DNA of 64,000 nucleotides, from contig JAPLSN010000043.1 in assembly GCA_026398615.1 (NCBI GenBank), forward strand, positions 1-64,000, written 5' to 3'. Positions within the stretch are counted from its first letter, which is position 1; each line of letters opens with the position of its first letter. Positions 20,003 through 26,923 of the stretch are shown here, one piece after another. A program made the translations under genes and the position numbers. The notes beneath the pieces were generated by a model that saw nothing but the letters and a program-made list of their open reading frames with translations, was not told where the DNA came from and did not search any database. The stretch comes from Spirochaetota bacterium. Lineage in GTDB: Bacteria; Spirochaetota; Spirochaetia; Treponematales; UBA12059.

Positions 20003-20032
20003 TTGACTAATAGGCAATCTTTCGTCTACAAT
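20003..20032 (+). promoter_or_regulatory. Promoter of the 20065 gene and greA-fusion operon
   Basis: TTGACT (20003-20008) and TACAAT (20027-20032) are 18 bases apart. Each matches five of six consensus positions. Transcription should begin near 20039. Confidence 0.7.
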
Positions 20033-20064: not shown

Positions 20065-20997
20065 ATGACCGTACCAAACGACGTGGCGACGTTGCTGGCC
20101 GACGCTTACGACAAGCTCAAATCCGCCGACCTGCCGACGTCCATCAGGTTACTGGATACAGCCCTATCCGTCGATTTCGAGAACGAGGAGGTGCTTTTCG
20201 CCCTCACCTGCGCGCAATGGTGGCGAGAACGTTTCACCCGTACGGAATCGATGCATAATTCCTTTGAAAAAGCGGATTTCGTCCTTTCACAATGGAAATC
20301 GTTCCAGGCATTCCAGCGACGGACCCAGAATGCGTTTGAACCGGCCCGATATGCATTCAAGCGTTTCGTGTTCGGATCCGCGCTGGCCTGGTACGAAGCC
20401 GCGGCGCCGTGCGAGAACGTCGACGCGGAGACCGCGCTGAGGCTCGGACGCTGCCTCAAGGGCATGGGGGACTTCCGGAAAGCCGTGGAGCGCCTGGAGG
20501 CGGCGACGAACGCGAGGAAGGACGATCCCGAGACGCTCGCGGAACTGGCCGACACCTATGCCCTCGTGAACGAAACGAGGGTTTCGAAGGCGCTCTTCCG
20601 GGAAGCGTTTTTCATCAATCCACAGCGGGTGAACCTGGGATTCCTGGAGTCGACGATGATCGAAAGGCTCGTGGAAAGTGTGGCCGCTCAGGGGTTCAAC
20701 GGACCCGAACTCGCCGAGTGGCTACCGGTATATGGCTGTCTTTCGGGCGTGTTCAACGTCAAACGGGAATTGAAGGCCGCGGAAGTCGGCAGACTCAAGC
20801 AGTCGATTTATGAACTGGAGAACGAGGCCGGTGAAAACGCGGAGCGCAGGGGCGTCCTCGTGCCACGCCTCATGAACAAGTATTTCTGGCTCGTAGACCA
20901 CATGATCAACGTGAAGGAAGACCGTGCACGGATCGACGAGGTCCTGCTCAAGGTCCGGATCCTGGACCCGGGGATCTACAGGCAATACGTTTCTTGA
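20065..20997 (+). CDS. Helical repeat protein upstream of the GreA fusion, function unknown
   Basis: The 310-residue cytosolic product is helical and contains TPR-like units (ALRLGRCLKGMGDFRKAVER, ETLAELADTYALVNETRVSK). It has no signal peptide. Two starts are possible: the ATG at 20065, preceded at only two bases by GAAGG, or an in-frame TTG at 20047 without any ribosome-binding site; I use the ATG. It shares the strong promoter at 20003 with the GreA-fusion gene that follows 20 bases later, whose ribosome-binding site overlaps the end of this gene. I recall a conserved hypothetical gene in this position in Treponema but cannot confirm it here. The tight linkage suggests a transcription-related role, which is inference. 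Confidence 0.75.
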   Translation: MTVPNDVATLLADAYDKLKSADLPTSIRLLDTALSVDFENEEVLFALTCAQWWRERFTRTESMHNSFEKADFVLSQWKSFQAFQRRTQNAFEPARYAFKRFVFGSALAWYEAAAPCENVDAETALRLGRCLKGMGDFRKAVERLEAATNARKDDPETLAELADTYALVNETRVSKALFREAFFINPQRVNLGFLESTMIERLVESVAAQGFNGPELAEWLPVYGCLSGVFNVKRELKAAEVGRLKQSIYELENEAGENAERRGVLVPRLMNKYFWLVDHMINVKEDRARIDEVLLKVRILDPGIYRQYVS

Positions 20998-21017
20998 TCG
21001 AGGAAGGGGTTAACGAT

Positions 21018-23720
21018 ATGGCAGACATCGCTACCGAATCGACCGTCGCGAAAAGGCTTCGCGAGATGCTCAACGAGGAGAAATGGACGCGCGCGACCCT
21101 CGGCGCGTACAGCATCTCCAATCTCAAGGAACTCGACGCGCTCTTCCACGAAGCGTCCGGGTTGAAGGTGCTCGACGAAGTACGCGACGTCTGCGACGAA
21201 CACCTCGGGCATTCAAAGAACAGCATAATAGCGCTGTACCTGTCCGGCGTCATCGCCCTCGCGAGGCAGCAGATCGACGACTCCAACATGGTGTCGCTCA
21301 TCAACATCTTCGTCGACAACAAGAAATGGCAGATCGTCGAGTTCATATGCGAACGGATACTCGAGTTCGGCGAGAACCGCTACGCGCTCCAGAAACTGGC
21401 GGAATGCTACCAGAGCGAAGACCGGGACAACGACATGTACACCGTATGGGAACGTCTCATACGGATCGATTATGAAGAGGCCGATATCGTCAAGTTCCTC
21501 GCCGAAAAGGCGGAGAAGGACGGGAGGACCGACGACGCCAGGGAGTACTACCGCAAGGCGCTCCACCGCTACATCGGGAAGGGGCTCTTCACCAATGTAA
21601 AGGAAATCTGGAACAAACTCCTCGAATATTGCCCCGACGATATCGATTTCTTCCTTCACGTGCAGAGGAAGATCGCGAAGCAGATCAGCGAAGACAAGGC
21701 GGCCGGACTCCTCTTCGACCTCTACAAGCATTACAAGAGCATAGAAAGCTGGGATATCGCGATCGATATCCTCAAGGTCGTCATTTCCTACGATGAGAAG
21801 AATCCCCTTCCGCGGAAGGAAATCGTGGAGTGCTACCGGGGCAAGTTCGCTGGCCACTCGAACCTCGAGGAGTATATCCGCGTCTCCAATCTTTCCCAAT
21901 CCTACAGGAGCCTTTCCGAGGCGATCGGAGAATTCGAAAAGCACATCGCATTCGATGTAGGCAATTTCGTCTACCATCGCACGTGGAACATAGGAAGGAT
22001 AGCGGATATCCGGTCCGACGAGATCACGGTCGACTTCGCGAAGAATCGCGGTCACGTCATGGGATTGAAGATGGCCATCGACAGCCTCATCACCCTGAGC
22101 CGCGATCATATCTGGGTGCTCAAGGCCGTCTGGAGCAAGGAAAAGCTCCACGACAAGGTCGTTTCGGATCATGCATGGGTTCTCAAGACCGTCATCAAGA
22201 GTTTCGACAACTGCGCCGACCTCAAGAAAATCAAGGCTGAACTCGTCCCGTCGATCCTCACTGACCGCGAATGGACGGGCTGGAGCTCCAAGGCCCGGAA
22301 GGTTCTCAAGGAAGACCCGCTGTTCGGGAACGCCAAGGATGATATCAATTCCTTCATCGTGCGGGACCGGACCCTCTCCTTCGACGAGAAGACCTATAAC
22401 CATTTCAAGGCGGAGACAAATTTCTTCGCGCGGGTCTCGTGCATGCGCGATTTCATGGAAAAGGGCGATCCCGACAGCGACTACTTCGCCGAAATGCTCG
22501 CATTCTTCACCGGTTTCACGCGCATGACCTCGCAGATCAACGAGTACGTGGTCTCCGCCTACCTCCTCCTCAAGGAAATAGCCACCAAATATCCACACCT
22601 CAAGGCCAACCTGAGCATCTCCCTCCAGTTCGGTGACATCTTCAACGATATCGACGACGTCGTGGCTATCTACGACGGCATCCGCGATACCGAGCTGCGT
22701 CGCTACTTCCTCCAGCACATCCGCAACTTCGTTCCCGAATGGCCCGACGTGTATGCCCGGATCCTCCCGTATTCGCTCTCCCAGGCCATGCTCGAGATTC
22801 TTGCCGCCAATGGCCACATCGAAAAGCTCAAGGCGATGGTTCTCTCGATCGTCGAGAATTACCGCGACCACCGCGAAGCCTTCGTCTGGGTCGTCAAGAA
22901 CCTGTGGGGCGAAGTCTGGGTCAAGGAACTCGGGCTTTCCTATGAGAAGATCGTCATCACGATGCTCCATATCCTCGACATCTCGTTCAAGGAGATAGAG
23001 AACCACCGCGACACGACCGAGAATCGCAAGATCAACAAGCAGATACATAATCTCCTTTTCAAGGAAAACGCCCTCACGGATTTCCTGGCCGGTTCGGACC
23101 ACGACACCATCGAGCGTGTATACATGCTCCTCACGGACATCAAGGATCTCGATCCCGCCATCAAGATCCAGATGAAGAAGTACGTGATCGACCGCTTCCC
23201 CGATTTCAAGTTCTCGGGCGAAGAGGAGAAAACCGTGGTTTCGCGCGGCTTGATCGTCACGACCGAGAAATACTCCGAAAAGCAGAAACTCCTCCAGGAA
23301 ATCATGGAGGTCGACGTGCCTGCGAACCAGCGCGAAATCGCCTTTGCCCTGTCCCTGGGTGACCTACGGGAAAACGCCGAGTACAAGGCTGCCCGGGAAA
23401 AGCAGGATGAGCTCAACACGAAGGTCGGCAAACTCAAGAACGAGATAGAACGCGCTCAGATCTTCGACAAGTCCACTATTTCCACGTCCAAGGTCACGTT
23501 CGGAACGATGGTCACGCTGAAAAACGAGTTGATCGATACCGAAGAACGGTACACGATCCTCGGCCCCTGGGAGTCCGATCCCGCGAACAACATCATCTCC
23601 TACCTCTCGCCGCTCGGAAAGAAGCTGATCAACCACAAGGTCGGCGAACGCGTCGCGTTCGTGATTCACGAACGGAAGTTCCAGTATTCAGTGCTCAAAA
23701 TCGAGGCGGCGCAACTCTGA
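21018..23720 (+). CDS. greA: GreA/GreB-type transcription elongation factor with very long N-terminal repeat region
   Basis: Gre factors rescue backtracked RNA polymerase by stimulating transcript cleavage through an acidic coiled-coil tip. Normal GreA has about 160 residues; this protein has 900. The Gre module is the last 160 or so: ANQREIAFALSLGDLRENAE begins near residue 770, with the acidic tip GDLRENAEYKAAREKQ at about 780-795. The FKBP-like domain with SPLGKKLINHKVGERV near 867 closes the protein. The preceding 740 residues are alpha-helical TPR/HEAT-like repeats (NRYALQKLAECYQSEDRDND, WDIAIDILKVVISYDEKNP). The start has AGGAAGGGG at 21001-21009. A protein of this size with GreA at its end is, as I recall, characteristic of Treponema and relatives. 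The N-terminal part may recruit it to RNA polymerase or other partners; this is inference. Confidence 0.9.
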   Translation: MADIATESTVAKRLREMLNEEKWTRATLGAYSISNLKELDALFHEASGLKVLDEVRDVCDEHLGHSKNSIIALYLSGVIALARQQIDDSNMVSLINIFVDNKKWQIVEFICERILEFGENRYALQKLAECYQSEDRDNDMYTVWERLIRIDYEEADIVKFLAEKAEKDGRTDDAREYYRKALHRYIGKGLFTNVKEIWNKLLEYCPDDIDFFLHVQRKIAKQISEDKAAGLLFDLYKHYKSIESWDIAIDILKVVISYDEKNPLPRKEIVECYRGKFAGHSNLEEYIRVSNLSQSYRSLSEAIGEFEKHIAFDVGNFVYHRTWNIGRIADIRSDEITVDFAKNRGHVMGLKMAIDSLITLSRDHIWVLKAVWSKEKLHDKVVSDHAWVLKTVIKSFDNCADLKKIKAELVPSILTDREWTGWSSKARKVLKEDPLFGNAKDDINSFIVRDRTLSFDEKTYNHFKAETNFFARVSCMRDFMEKGDPDSDYFAEMLAFFTGFTRMTSQINEYVVSAYLLLKEIATKYPHLKANLSISLQFGDIFNDIDDVVAIYDGIRDTELRRYFLQHIRNFVPEWPDVYARILPYSLSQAMLEILAANGHIEKLKAMVLSIVENYRDHREAFVWVVKNLWGEVWVKELGLSYEKIVITMLHILDISFKEIENHRDTTENRKINKQIHNLLFKENALTDFLAGSDHDTIERVYMLLTDIKDLDPAIKIQMKKYVIDRFPDFKFSGEEEKTVVSRGLIVTTEKYSEKQKLLQEIMEVDVPANQREIAFALSLGDLRENAEYKAAREKQDELNTKVGKLKNEIERAQIFDKSTISTSKVTFGTMVTLKNELIDTEERYTILGPWESDPANNIISYLSPLGKKLINHKVGERVAFVIHERKFQYSVLKIEAAQL

Positions 23721-23780: not shown

Positions 23781-25535
23781 ATGAAAAAGGTGATTGCGAC
23801 GCTCCTGCTTGCCGCGGCACTCGGAACCGCTTCGTCGGAAGCGACCGACGCGCCCGTCGATCTCGTCGTGCTTCTCGATGTGTCCCAGAGCATGTACCCC
23901 TATTTCCAGGACGTCGTCGATTTCGTCGTAACGAAGGTCGCCAGCGATTATTTGCGTTTCGGCGACAACTTTCACCTGCTCACCTTCGCGGACGACATCC
24001 GGATCGAGATGGTACTGCAGGTCAAAACCGAGCAGGACGTAAAGAGCATCCTGGGCCGGCTTTTCCTACTGTATCCGCTCGGTCGCACCACGGATTTCGT
24101 CATGGCTCTCGGGAATCTGCGGCAATACCTTGCCGATCTCCCGACCGCAAGCAGGAAACTCGCCATCGTCGTGACCGACGGCTTCCACAATCCGGCGGAA
24201 TCCAGCCCCTACGCTTCGCTCGATGTCGAGCGCACCAAGGCCGAGATAGTGCGTTCCGCAGCCGGGATCAGGGAGAACGGATGGGAACTGAAAATCATCA
24301 GGATTCCCTTCGGGGCCGATAAACCCGCGGGCGCCGCGACAGCACCCGATTCCTCGGCCGGGCCGGAAACCGGCGCGACACCCGGCTCCGGTTCCTACCT
24401 GGACGATCTCGCCGGCGCGCTCGATGTCGACGTCACCGAGTTCGATCCCGCCGACAAGCAGTCCGCGGCAACCGAGGGGCTCGGCATTCCCGCCGTCCGT
24501 TTCCCTTCACCGCTCGGCGCCCGGGAATACGCGTTCTCCTTTCCGCTGGAAATCGACAATGTATCCACCTCAACCATGAGGCTCGAACTTGACCGGGTTC
24601 TGTTCGGGGGTAAGGATATCCTCGACAGGAATGTCTTCTTCGACCTGCCGCCCAAGCGATCCAAAACACTCCAGGTTCCGGTTATCGTCCCCGACTCTAC
24701 CGAACCCGGCGCGGCGAGCCTGGAGATAGAACTGGGATTCGCAGACGGCATCCGGGTGGCTCCACAATCCGGAGTACTCGAACTGACCCTGAAGCGCGGA
24801 GTGTTCTCCACGATCCTTAGTGTCGCTTCACGCGTGTGGGTATTTGCGATACTGCTCATCGCCGCGTTGGCCGCGATCCTCCTGTTCGCGCTTCTCGTCC
24901 GCGGCGCGCCCCGCGAAGCCGAAGCCGGCGTCGTCGGTGCGGTCCTGGATTCCCATGCAGCCGAACAGGCCGCGGCGATCAAGGCCGCGCCCACGGAAGG
25001 GATGGATTCCGGGCACGGGCAAAAAGCGGGATCGCGCGAAAAGGATGAGCACGCGGCAGAAACCCTCGCGTCGTACCGGCGACTGACTTCCCTTCGCCGG
25101 GAGCAGCTTTCCGCTCCGTCCGCCCCGGGATTCGCCTTCCAGCCAAGAATCAGAACTTCGTCGTCAATCCGCGTCGAACTCACCGTATCGGGCCAGACGA
25201 CGCTTGTAGGTCTGCGAAACATCAAGACCCTCCATGCCGGCTCAGTGAAAAGCATCGGGGGGGCCCGCAGCGATTTCCTCGTCTTCCTCGTACCCATGCC
25301 ACACCGCATCGCCGACATCCATTTTGACGGAGATGACCTGATACTGGTACCCACGCGCAGGGAACTGTTCCCGGATTATGATGCACCCATAGAGCATTGC
25401 ATGGAAACCGACATCACGTTCATCTCCAGGCATGGTTGGCCCATGGCATTGAGATTCTCGCGCTATGTTCCACCGACGGAAAAACTGAACTCCCTGCTGC
25501 ATTGCATAGAAACGCCTGGTCTCTACGAAGAGTGA
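23781..25535 (+). CDS. Membrane-anchored VWA-domain protein
   Basis: The 584-residue protein has a signal peptide (MKKVIATLLLAAALGTASSEA) and then a von Willebrand factor A domain. The metal-ion adhesion site is complete: DVSQS (Asp33, Ser35, Ser37), a Thr in GRTTDF near 101, and the Asp of VTDG near 131. A beta-rich region follows. One membrane span lies at about 350-372 (WVFAILLIAALAAILLFALLV). The C-terminal part of about 210 residues should be cytoplasmic and contains a strand-rich domain (IRVELTVSGQTTLVGLRNIK) with the flavour of an FHA-like sandwich, which I cannot confirm. AAGGGG precedes the start by eight bases. It converges on the HEAT-repeat gene. The partner protein of the VWA domain is unknown. 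Confidence 0.82.
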   Translation: MKKVIATLLLAAALGTASSEATDAPVDLVVLLDVSQSMYPYFQDVVDFVVTKVASDYLRFGDNFHLLTFADDIRIEMVLQVKTEQDVKSILGRLFLLYPLGRTTDFVMALGNLRQYLADLPTASRKLAIVVTDGFHNPAESSPYASLDVERTKAEIVRSAAGIRENGWELKIIRIPFGADKPAGAATAPDSSAGPETGATPGSGSYLDDLAGALDVDVTEFDPADKQSAATEGLGIPAVRFPSPLGAREYAFSFPLEIDNVSTSTMRLELDRVLFGGKDILDRNVFFDLPPKRSKTLQVPVIVPDSTEPGAASLEIELGFADGIRVAPQSGVLELTLKRGVFSTILSVASRVWVFAILLIAALAAILLFALLVRGAPREAEAGVVGAVLDSHAAEQAAAIKAAPTEGMDSGHGQKAGSREKDEHAAETLASYRRLTSLRREQLSAPSAPGFAFQPRIRTSSSIRVELTVSGQTTLVGLRNIKTLHAGSVKSIGGARSDFLVFLVPMPHRIADIHFDGDDLILVPTRRELFPDYDAPIEHCMETDITFISRHGWPMALRFSRYVPPTEKLNSLLHCIETPGLYEE

Positions 25536-25552: not shown

Positions 25553-26923
25553 TTACTCCACGATATCGGCCTTTAACTGCGCCGCCCGTTTCCTCACGAC
25601 CTCGGAAGGATCCGATTCGGACAACGCGTTTACCCTGTCGAGGAGTGCGCGATTCCCGGTGCGTCGAATCCATTCGAGCGCGCCAAGTCGTATCGTAAAA
25701 TCCGGATGGGAGAGCAATCTTTCCACGTACGGAACTGCGGCATCGACATCGATCGCCACGATCTCCCTTGCGACCGCCTTGAAGAACGTCTGGTCTTTCT
25801 CGGAGATTGCGCTTTCGAGCGTTTCGCGCAACAAGCTCGCAGATGAGGAGTCGTTCCGCACGAGCAGGCCGAACGCCAGGGCCCTGAACGCGGTATCGTT
25901 CTTCTTGTCGGAAAGGAAGGCTCCAAGAAAATCGAACGATTCCCCTCCCCCGATCTCAGCGATAGCCTTCAAGGAAGCCTCCCGCACCGCGCGCTCGGGA
26001 TCTGACGCGGCCTTGTACTCGAGATTCGGTATGGCGGATCTCAGGCGTCTCTTCCCCGCTGTCCTGGCCGCGGCAATGCGGGTTTTGCCGAATGGGTCCC
26101 TCAGGCTTTCCACGACTGCCGCCTCGACGTCCTCCCCCTGGAACGCGTACAGCGCTTCCACGGCGGAAGTCCTCACGTTGGGATCGTCATCGAAGGCCGC
26201 CTTCAGAATCGCCGGCTTGGCCCGTTGGTCGCCGATGCTGGCCAGCGCGTCGCAGGCGCTCATCCGTAGAACCTTGCCGGTCGAACCGTCGTCGAGCAGT
26301 TTCCCGAGCCGCTCTACCGCTTCCGGGGCCTTGATGTCTCCAAGCGCACGGATGATCTCGATGCGCACGTTTTCAGCCCATTCGTCAGCGTCGTACATCG
26401 CGACGAGCCTGACGGCTTCGTCAGGCCCGCCGGCGGCGCCGAATATCCTGACGGCATGGCCGACATAGTCCTTCTCCGGAGCTTCGATGATCTCGGAGGC
26501 TTCACCCAGCGCGTTCCGCGCCTTGACCGCGATGAGGTAGGACAGCGCGGCCTTTACGGTTTCGGCCTGCAACCTGTCCCGTTCATCGACCACCGATACC
26601 GCTTTCTCCGAAGCACCCGGGAATTTGACGTCCCCGAAATACGAGAAAAGTTCCGAAAGGAGCTTCCGGCTCCTCGTCGCCTTGAGCAGGGCAAGGAGTT
26701 GTTCGTCGTAGCGTCCATCCTTCTCCGAGCGCAGGACCTTGAGGAGGTCGATGATCTCCGATTCAATACCGTAGGCGATCGTCTCACGGCGCTTCTTTTC
26801 GATTTCGGCCTTCTGGGGGTTGGATGGCGCCGGTTCCGCCTGCGGGAACAGGGAAGTCGTACTCAATGGCAGAACGAGCAGCAGGGCGGAAAGAACGGCG
26901 GCTTTGACCTTCGATGCTCTCAT
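25553..26923 (-). CDS. Exported HEAT-repeat protein
   Basis: The 456-residue protein has a signal peptide (MRASKVKAAVLSALLLVLPLS) followed by at least eight HEAT/PBS-lyase-type repeats. They are recognisable by units such as IEIIRALGDIKAPEAVERLGK, MSACDALASIGDQRAKPAIL, and ASLKAIAEIGGGESFDFLGA. Such repeats form an all-helical solenoid used for protein binding. The mature protein is expected in the periplasm. The start is fixed by AGGAGG nine bases upstream. It is the last gene of the long minus-strand block, 129 bases after tgt, and ends 17 bases from the convergent VWA gene. No enzymatic motif is seen. Confidence 0.85.
   Translation of the reverse strand: MRASKVKAAVLSALLLVLPLSTTSLFPQAEPAPSNPQKAEIEKKRRETIAYGIESEIIDLLKVLRSEKDGRYDEQLLALLKATRSRKLLSELFSYFGDVKFPGASEKAVSVVDERDRLQAETVKAALSYLIAVKARNALGEASEIIEAPEKDYVGHAVRIFGAAGGPDEAVRLVAMYDADEWAENVRIEIIRALGDIKAPEAVERLGKLLDDGSTGKVLRMSACDALASIGDQRAKPAILKAAFDDDPNVRTSAVEALYAFQGEDVEAAVVESLRDPFGKTRIAAARTAGKRRLRSAIPNLEYKAASDPERAVREASLKAIAEIGGGESFDFLGAFLSDKKNDTAFRALAFGLLVRNDSSSASLLRETLESAISEKDQTFFKAVAREIVAIDVDAAVPYVERLLSHPDFTIRLGALEWIRRTGNRALLDRVNALSESDPSEVVRKRAAQLKADIVE

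Follow-up and report, generated by a model that had tools for sequence, protein, structure and literature searches.

The 64,000-nucleotide window analysed here, the start of contig JAPLSN010000043.1 from a Spirochaetota bacterium (GCA_026398615.1), encodes on its forward strand, at 21018–23720, a 900-residue protein that ends in the transcript cleavage factor GreA and opens with some 740 further residues, referred to below as the module. The module is predicted to comprise two helical solenoids that enclose a winged helix and a Tudor/SH3 domain of the type found in UvrD, CarD and Mfd, which binds RNA polymerase (RNAP). It is conserved across the phylum, mostly lies beside a conserved gene for a tetratricopeptide repeat (TPR) protein, and occurs naturally both without Gre and with a Gre domain that has lost its catalytic tip. 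We consider it probable, though by no means assured, that the protein is an RNAP-resident scaffold that carries GreA in cis and has a role of its own.

Architecture of the fused protein and its predicted Tudor domain

The Gre part does not stand out within its family; what is new is the module. A complete GreA, the domain that the first-pass annotation had recognized, makes up the last 155 residues of the window protein (746–896), with GreA_GreB_N (PF03449) at 61.0 bits (cut-off 24.5, E 1.3e-16) and GreA_GreB (PF01272) at 79.2 bits (cut-off 26.9, E 2.3e-22). Coiled coil, acidic D/E tip and C-terminal domain are shared with GreA/GreB, and the model of the window protein superposes on Escherichia coli GreA (1grj) with Z 15.6 and 2.6 Å over 150 residues. 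Ordinary GreA, however, has about 158 residues and no docking domain, whereas the window protein has 900, of which 740 lie ahead of Gre. The cleavage tip, GDLRENAEY (residues 781–789), is intact as first described: D782 and E785 are invariant across 75 sequences. Of 146 distinct fused proteins, 145 retain the D and E: 143 fit the tip motif, and two (L146, L176) keep D/E after a different preceding residue. A separate short greA, which the first-pass annotation had proposed to look for, was not found in the window genome (3.38 Mb, 99% complete), where PF01272 gave no second match. Judged from sequence, Gre action in this organism is likely, yet the protein probably does more than that.

An AlphaFold2 model of the full protein, built with 75 sequences, has a mean predicted local distance difference test score (pLDDT) of 86.1 and a predicted template modelling score (pTM) of 0.52. 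It places a solenoid at ~9–290, a barrel at 317–360, helices and a hairpin up to ~450, a second solenoid at ~455–726 and Gre from 745. The resulting features, all on the forward strand, are:

21018–23720, +: open reading frame of the fused GreA (module plus Gre), ATG start, 900 residues
21042–21887, +: N-terminal helical solenoid, TPR-like, residues ~9–290 (predicted structure, family profile, VIA-align)
21933–22103, +: Tudor/SH3 domain of the UvrD/CarD/Mfd RNAP-binding type, residues ~306–362 (profiles, predicted fold)
22131–22379, +: winged helix, residues ~372–454, similar in fold to the N-domain of RNAP delta and to forkhead domains
22380–23195, +: second helical solenoid, residues ~455–726 (predicted structure)
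23196–23252, +: linker between module and Gre, residues ~727–745, with pLDDT below 50 at 735–743
23253–23462, +: Gre coiled coil, residues 746–815 (Pfam GreA_GreB_N, PF03449)
23358–23384, +: Gre catalytic tip GDLRENAEY, residues 781–789, with D782 and E785 (sequence, conservation)
23484–23705, +: Gre C-terminal domain, residues 823–896 (Pfam GreA_GreB, PF01272)

The extra 740 residues had been described as TPR/HEAT-like, which does not hold for residues 299–454, the predicted Tudor/SH3 domain and winged helix. Pfam TPR models match the window protein weakly, below their cut-offs; the family profile matches consensus TPRs at E 3.5e-33, and in VIA-align the first solenoid aligns with many TPR proteins and with no specific relative. 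A Gre factor with a purely repetitive extension was rejected, as residues 294–462 form a conserved non-repeat block (alignment A5, 169 columns, 67% mean column identity). The module carries invariant residues across the 75 sequences.

Folded alone, residues 294–462 gave a pLDDT of 85.1 and a pTM of 0.71. A Foldseek search with the domain model ranked highest the Tudor domains of UvrD and PcrA, together with CarD in complex with RNAP beta; 6yi2, 7egs (UvrD with the RNAP lobe), the UvrD1 Tudor domain and Mfd are also among the first nine rows, of which the remaining two are the transposase TnsB. Against 7egt_B, the model reaches a TM-score of 0.86 (by target length) at 1.4 Å over 49 alignment columns, and the Tudor/SH3 fold is recovered with a VIA Z of 7.0 over 47 residues. 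Profile comparison of residues 300–366 by HHalign gave probabilities of 84 for the CarD RNAP-interacting domain (RID), 82 for the UvrD C-terminal Tudor domain and 44 for the Mfd RID; the two tiled windows that overlap the motif agree, the other windows reach at most 3.6, and the reversed segment scores 0.3. When family profiles were run against PDB sequences, the shorter and more diverse A6 ranked UvrD first (E 0.0068), with UvrD/PcrA chains making up five of nine matches at E up to 10; A5 recovered the UvrD/PcrA Tudor domain at E 1.3 and 2.3, below unrelated matches such as a Mur ligase (E 0.095).

The same families recur when relatives are searched individually. With the 169-residue segment of 68 members (E up to 1), CarD_TRCF_RID matches 55, DUF3553 47 and PcrA_UvrD_tudor 45; with the 57-residue segment of 47 members (E up to 0.1), the counts are 37, 23 and 33. 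Genome-wide scans point the same way, and in them several relatives exceed the cut-offs of these Pfam families. CarD_TRCF_RID (PF02559) was run over 40 genomes: among the matches listed, three lie in module-sized frames, one of them over the cut-off and that of genome G043 inside a stand-alone module, and the remainder lie in long Mfd-sized and short CarD-sized frames, names that are inferred from frame length. PcrA_UvrD_tudor (PF21196) matches in 14 of 40 genomes, and one over-cut-off match is a long GreA. For DUF3553 (PF12073), six of the seven matches in 100 genomes are in frames of 908–930 residues that we read as long GreAs, three being inside located long GreAs, two sharing contig and frame length with PF03449 matches and one being judged by length. 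PF21196 finds nothing in the other 26 spirochaete genomes, the window genome among them; the module might conceivably replace the UvrD/PcrA Tudor domain in such genomes.

The PcrA/UvrD C-terminal domain and the CarD and Mfd RIDs share with the module the predicted fold, the motif GxxVxHxxWGxG and binding positions that are conserved in the module, two of them with other residues; the Tudor domain of the module differs in that it lies inside a solenoid protein without helicase or translocase, and its sequence scores are mostly under the Pfam cut-offs. In PcrA, the substitutions H681A, W684A, K712A and L714A each severely cut RNAP binding, according to an excerpt of PMC5397179. H681 and W684 align with H320 and W323 of the window protein (1pjr numbering), and K712 and L714 with H346 and M348 (via 7egt_B), so that H and W are identical and H and M stand in place of K and L. 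None of the four varies across the 75 close relatives; among 58 diverse sequences, H320 is kept in 58 and M348 in 53. The CarD RID binds the beta1 lobe (excerpt of PMC4593161). Liquid chromatography–mass spectrometry (LC-MS) of affinity-purified Borrelia burgdorferi RNAP, as partially available in PMC7237435, lists GreA and NusA among the co-purifying proteins and regards them as likely interactors. Two sampled genomes bear on the form of this GreA: G254 is Borreliella andersonii (100% plasmid match, against 94% for B. burgdorferi) and G233 is a Borrelia. Because the single Gre of G254 lies in a 904-residue fused frame, the co-purified protein would, by genus, be the fusion, its form being taken from the genomes of genus-mates.

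The winged helix aligns with the Staphylococcus aureus RNAP delta subunit (8x6g_E) with Z 8.8 over 83 residues at 3.0 Å, and with forkhead domains at Z 8.9, a tie. A HARE-HTH (PF05066) scan of 60 genomes returned eight matches in seven genomes, none in a module-sized frame. Given that null result and the equal forkhead fit, we limit the claim to a winged helix: the predicted fold is like that of the N-domain of delta (RpoE) and of forkhead alike, the HARE-HTH sequence match is absent from the modules of these genomes, and membership of the HARE-HTH/delta family was rejected. A relationship to CTR9 of the eukaryotic Paf1 elongation complex (Paf1C) was likewise rejected, with Foldseek TM-scores of 0.09–0.13 that reflect a generic TPR; CTR9 is a TPR scaffold on elongating polymerase, and its likeness to the module is analogy only.

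Natural forms and spread of the module

NCBIfam already lists the fusion: its family NF011309 (PRK14720.1, transcription elongation factor GreA, 906 positions) matches residues 11–900 at 1041.9 bits (cut-off 714) and is the family of the window protein itself, under a name that covers GreA only and is silent on the module. The first-pass annotation thought the purpose of the fusion undescribed. The fusion as such is known to annotators; titles and abstracts from our literature searches showed no study of this fusion or module, nor is either treated in the available portion of PMC5906684. Residues 1–740 without Gre (21018–23237) still score 824 bits with NF011309, above the cut-off of 714, and the model could therefore label a Gre-less protein "GreA".

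Such proteins exist. We inspected 30 genomes with weak NF011309 scores and translated their loci; in 10 sampled genomes (G002, G009, G011, G012, G024, G035, G043, G044, G147 and G163), the module is a separate protein without Gre, of 725–757 residues in nine and in a 904-residue frame in G011. A short GreA is encoded elsewhere in seven of these genomes, and scans of the other three, G012 (95% complete), G163 (98%) and G044 (80%), with PF03449 found no Gre coiled coil. When 57 modules were placed in a tree, the ten stand-alone ones lay on one side of one branch, with a support of only 53; the stand-alone state needs one change, and none of 500 shuffles was as low. In the tree of Gre domains, 19 short rows (18 different, one present twice) separate from all fused ones with a support of 99. 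Both trees were made with a quick method and are unrooted, so that the direction, fusion or fission, is not readable from them; a single fusion or a single fission would account for both. In family f42, all four proteins read (L047, L264, L265, L266) keep the coiled coil, but a deletion has removed its tip and with it the two acidic residues; the Tudor motif is retained. L047 is the lone tip loss among the 146 distinct fused proteins, and a PF03449 scan of the f42 genomes gave no match and no further Gre coiled coil. The module is therefore more than an add-on to Gre, as it occurs alone and outlives the loss of the tip in one family.

Across the phylum, NF011309 matches 291 of 296 spirochaete genomes at E ≤0.001; its best match is at E ≤1e-40 in 283, weaker in eight, and absent in five. 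A relatives search with a 16-sequence alignment kept the best 80 of 455 relatives, each a spirochaete by record title, a cut at which relatives from other phyla would not show. PF03449 matches in 278 of the 296 genomes (one match in 236, two in 42, none in 18), and most genomes of the window's class have a single Gre coiled coil, in a frame of ~900 residues. The fusion had been called lineage-wide, which these numbers largely bear out; it is not universal, and in some families the best NF011309 match is a module without Gre. The first-pass annotation had also named a normal greA elsewhere, together with tip loss in relatives, as a sign that Gre activity is gone. The outcome is mixed: the window genome has no second greA, 42 of the 296 genomes have two Gre coiled coils, and f42 is tipless.

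Further variants were seen. Two genomes of family f36 (G025, 91% complete, and G036; loci L059 and L060) have a short GreA and no module that we could find. In families f49, f33 and f41, the fused tip carries an extra residue in front and an altered pattern (L032, L033, L085, L086), and PF03449 mostly matches twice per genome, as if the two Gre copies divided the work. In one metagenome record (L131, 4986–7670), the gene is split into two frames of 670 and 192 residues, which probably reflects an error in sequencing or a recent break, and an apparent loss of the coiled coil in G261 was rejected, the gene being cut by the contig end. The fusion was probably missed in the first annotation of Treponema pallidum, whose TP0019 we take to be greA. 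TP0018 and TP0019 were two genes at first and one after resequencing, as stated in an excerpt of PMC3265458. A phage origin was rejected after one scan of viral contigs, which gave seven pattern stretches and no relative.

The protein does not look confined to spirochaetes, to judge from a second model that matches the module itself. NF004969 (PRK06330.1, transcript cleavage factor/unknown domain fusion, 718 positions), which we take to be chlamydial, aligns with residues 241–887 at 174.9 bits (cut-off 697), with the module alone at 61.9 bits (E 4.5e-17) and with the stand-alone module L050 at 120.5 bits; none of 58 relatives reaches its cut-off. It is homologous over module and Gre, and has no counterpart to roughly the first 170 residues found in spirochaetes. 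The link to chlamydiae is drawn from this model.

The partner gene and neighbouring features

A second repeat gene upstream of the long one, behind a near-consensus promoter, had been proposed. The gene is real, and the promoter-like site matches 10 of 12 consensus positions. The features ahead of the long gene are:

20003–20032, +: putative promoter-like site TTGACT-18-TACAAT, upstream of the two-gene unit (10 of 12 consensus match only)
20065–20997, +: partner gene for a 310-residue TPR protein, conserved beside the module
21000–21009, +: likely ribosome-binding site of the long gene, GAGGAAGGGG, eight bases before the ATG at 21018

The frame of the long gene could also start at a TTG at 20994; the ATG is favoured because GAGGAAGGGG is a plausible ribosome-binding site. 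A homologue of the partner lies directly upstream on the same strand for 135 of 162 distinct module proteins, many from Borrelia among them; it is not directly upstream in 20, and seven are cut by a contig end. Adjacency holds in 34 of 45 sampled families and for ten of ten stand-alone modules. Among 15 genomes that lack close adjacency, a full-length partner match lies elsewhere or ~1 kb off in 11; no match was found in G224 and G226, and only weak ones in G240 and G010. By gene order and homology, the partner gene tracks the module rather than Gre. Downstream lie genes for a von Willebrand factor A-domain protein (23781–25535) and, on the opposite strand, a HEAT-repeat protein (25553–26923).

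Proposed docking on RNA polymerase and competing readings

From these features we infer docking on RNAP, a docking site on beta, a span to the secondary channel and a function independent of Gre. The Tudor domain would dock on the beta-subunit lobes, as do those of UvrD/PcrA, CarD and Mfd; the two solenoids would stretch across the surface of the enzyme, with the co-encoded TPR protein as a possible ligand, and the winged helix would contact nearby DNA or the polymerase. Gre, on its flexible linker, would insert its acidic tip into the secondary channel upon backtracking, so that a cleavage factor would be permanently at hand on the polymerase. The scaffold may have an elongation (or repair) function of its own, which would account for its persistence, in some spirochaetes, as a free protein or joined to a tipless Gre. 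The first-pass suggestion that the N-terminal part anchors Gre to RNAP gains from the Tudor domain and from the B. burgdorferi LC-MS data, as partially available (PMC7237435), and falls short in that the module is not a mere accessory of Gre.

Several points weigh against an RNAP-docked scaffold. The Tudor matches are weak one by one: the window protein reaches 13.9 bits where the cut-off is 23.9, and the best Foldseek E-value is 0.008, with none below 0.001. Tudor domains also bind nucleic acid and methylated peptides. Candidate docking positions vary among the 58 diverse sequences, W323 being W in 44 (F in nine) and H346 being H in 50. The pTM of 0.52 leaves the relative placement of the domains uncertain, and the same LC-MS paper, in the portion available, calls the co-purifying proteins contaminants, unquantified (PMC7237435).

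We regard it as unlikely, if a serious contender, that the Tudor domain and solenoids bind a target other than RNAP, such as a protein of the ribosome, a factor in repair or termination, nucleic acid or a modified peptide, and so couple Gre to another machine. Solenoids are generic protein binders, the RimP and RapA Tudor/SH3 models match five and two of 47 members, and PMC7585439 reports nucleic-acid affinity for the UvrD Tudor domain; but the Pfam families that match most members are the CarD/Mfd RID, the PcrA/UvrD Tudor domain and DUF3553, the conserved positions are those by which PcrA binds RNAP, and GreA co-purifies with RNAP, as far as the available part of PMC7237435 goes. The flexible linker at 735–743 and the conserved, co-located partner gene would also suit a regulatory lid that keeps Gre off the secondary channel until a signal or partner frees it. 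This seems improbable to us, as a lid leaves unexplained the stand-alone modules without a detected Gre (G012, G163) and the tipless family. Every sequence feature of GreA is intact, as would be expected if the protein were a normal GreA whose N-terminal extension is inert, a fusion without special purpose; we give this reading very little credence in view of the invariant module residues in 75 sequences, the conserved neighbour and the survival of the module without Gre.

The RNAP-resident scaffold with GreA in cis may belong to a wider pattern, which we put forward tentatively, as something short of an even chance. A solenoid scaffold docked by a Tudor domain and paired with a TPR protein would then be a new class of bacterial transcription factor, old in the spirochaetes and also present in chlamydiae. 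It would act on elongating RNAP with a Gre-independent core function, and in most lineages a single fusion would have brought GreA into it, giving each polymerase with the scaffold a cleavage factor of its own. Spirochaetes and chlamydiae include major pathogens, and their transcription machinery has been little studied. If the proposal is true, annotators have taken the name "GreA" from the tail of what is a separate kind of RNAP scaffold, and Gre action in these bacteria would be delivered in cis, not by diffusion. The natural split, fused, tipless and Gre-less forms would then offer a ready-made series on a tethered cleavage factor, and the partner gene and two docking residues would make the idea directly testable.

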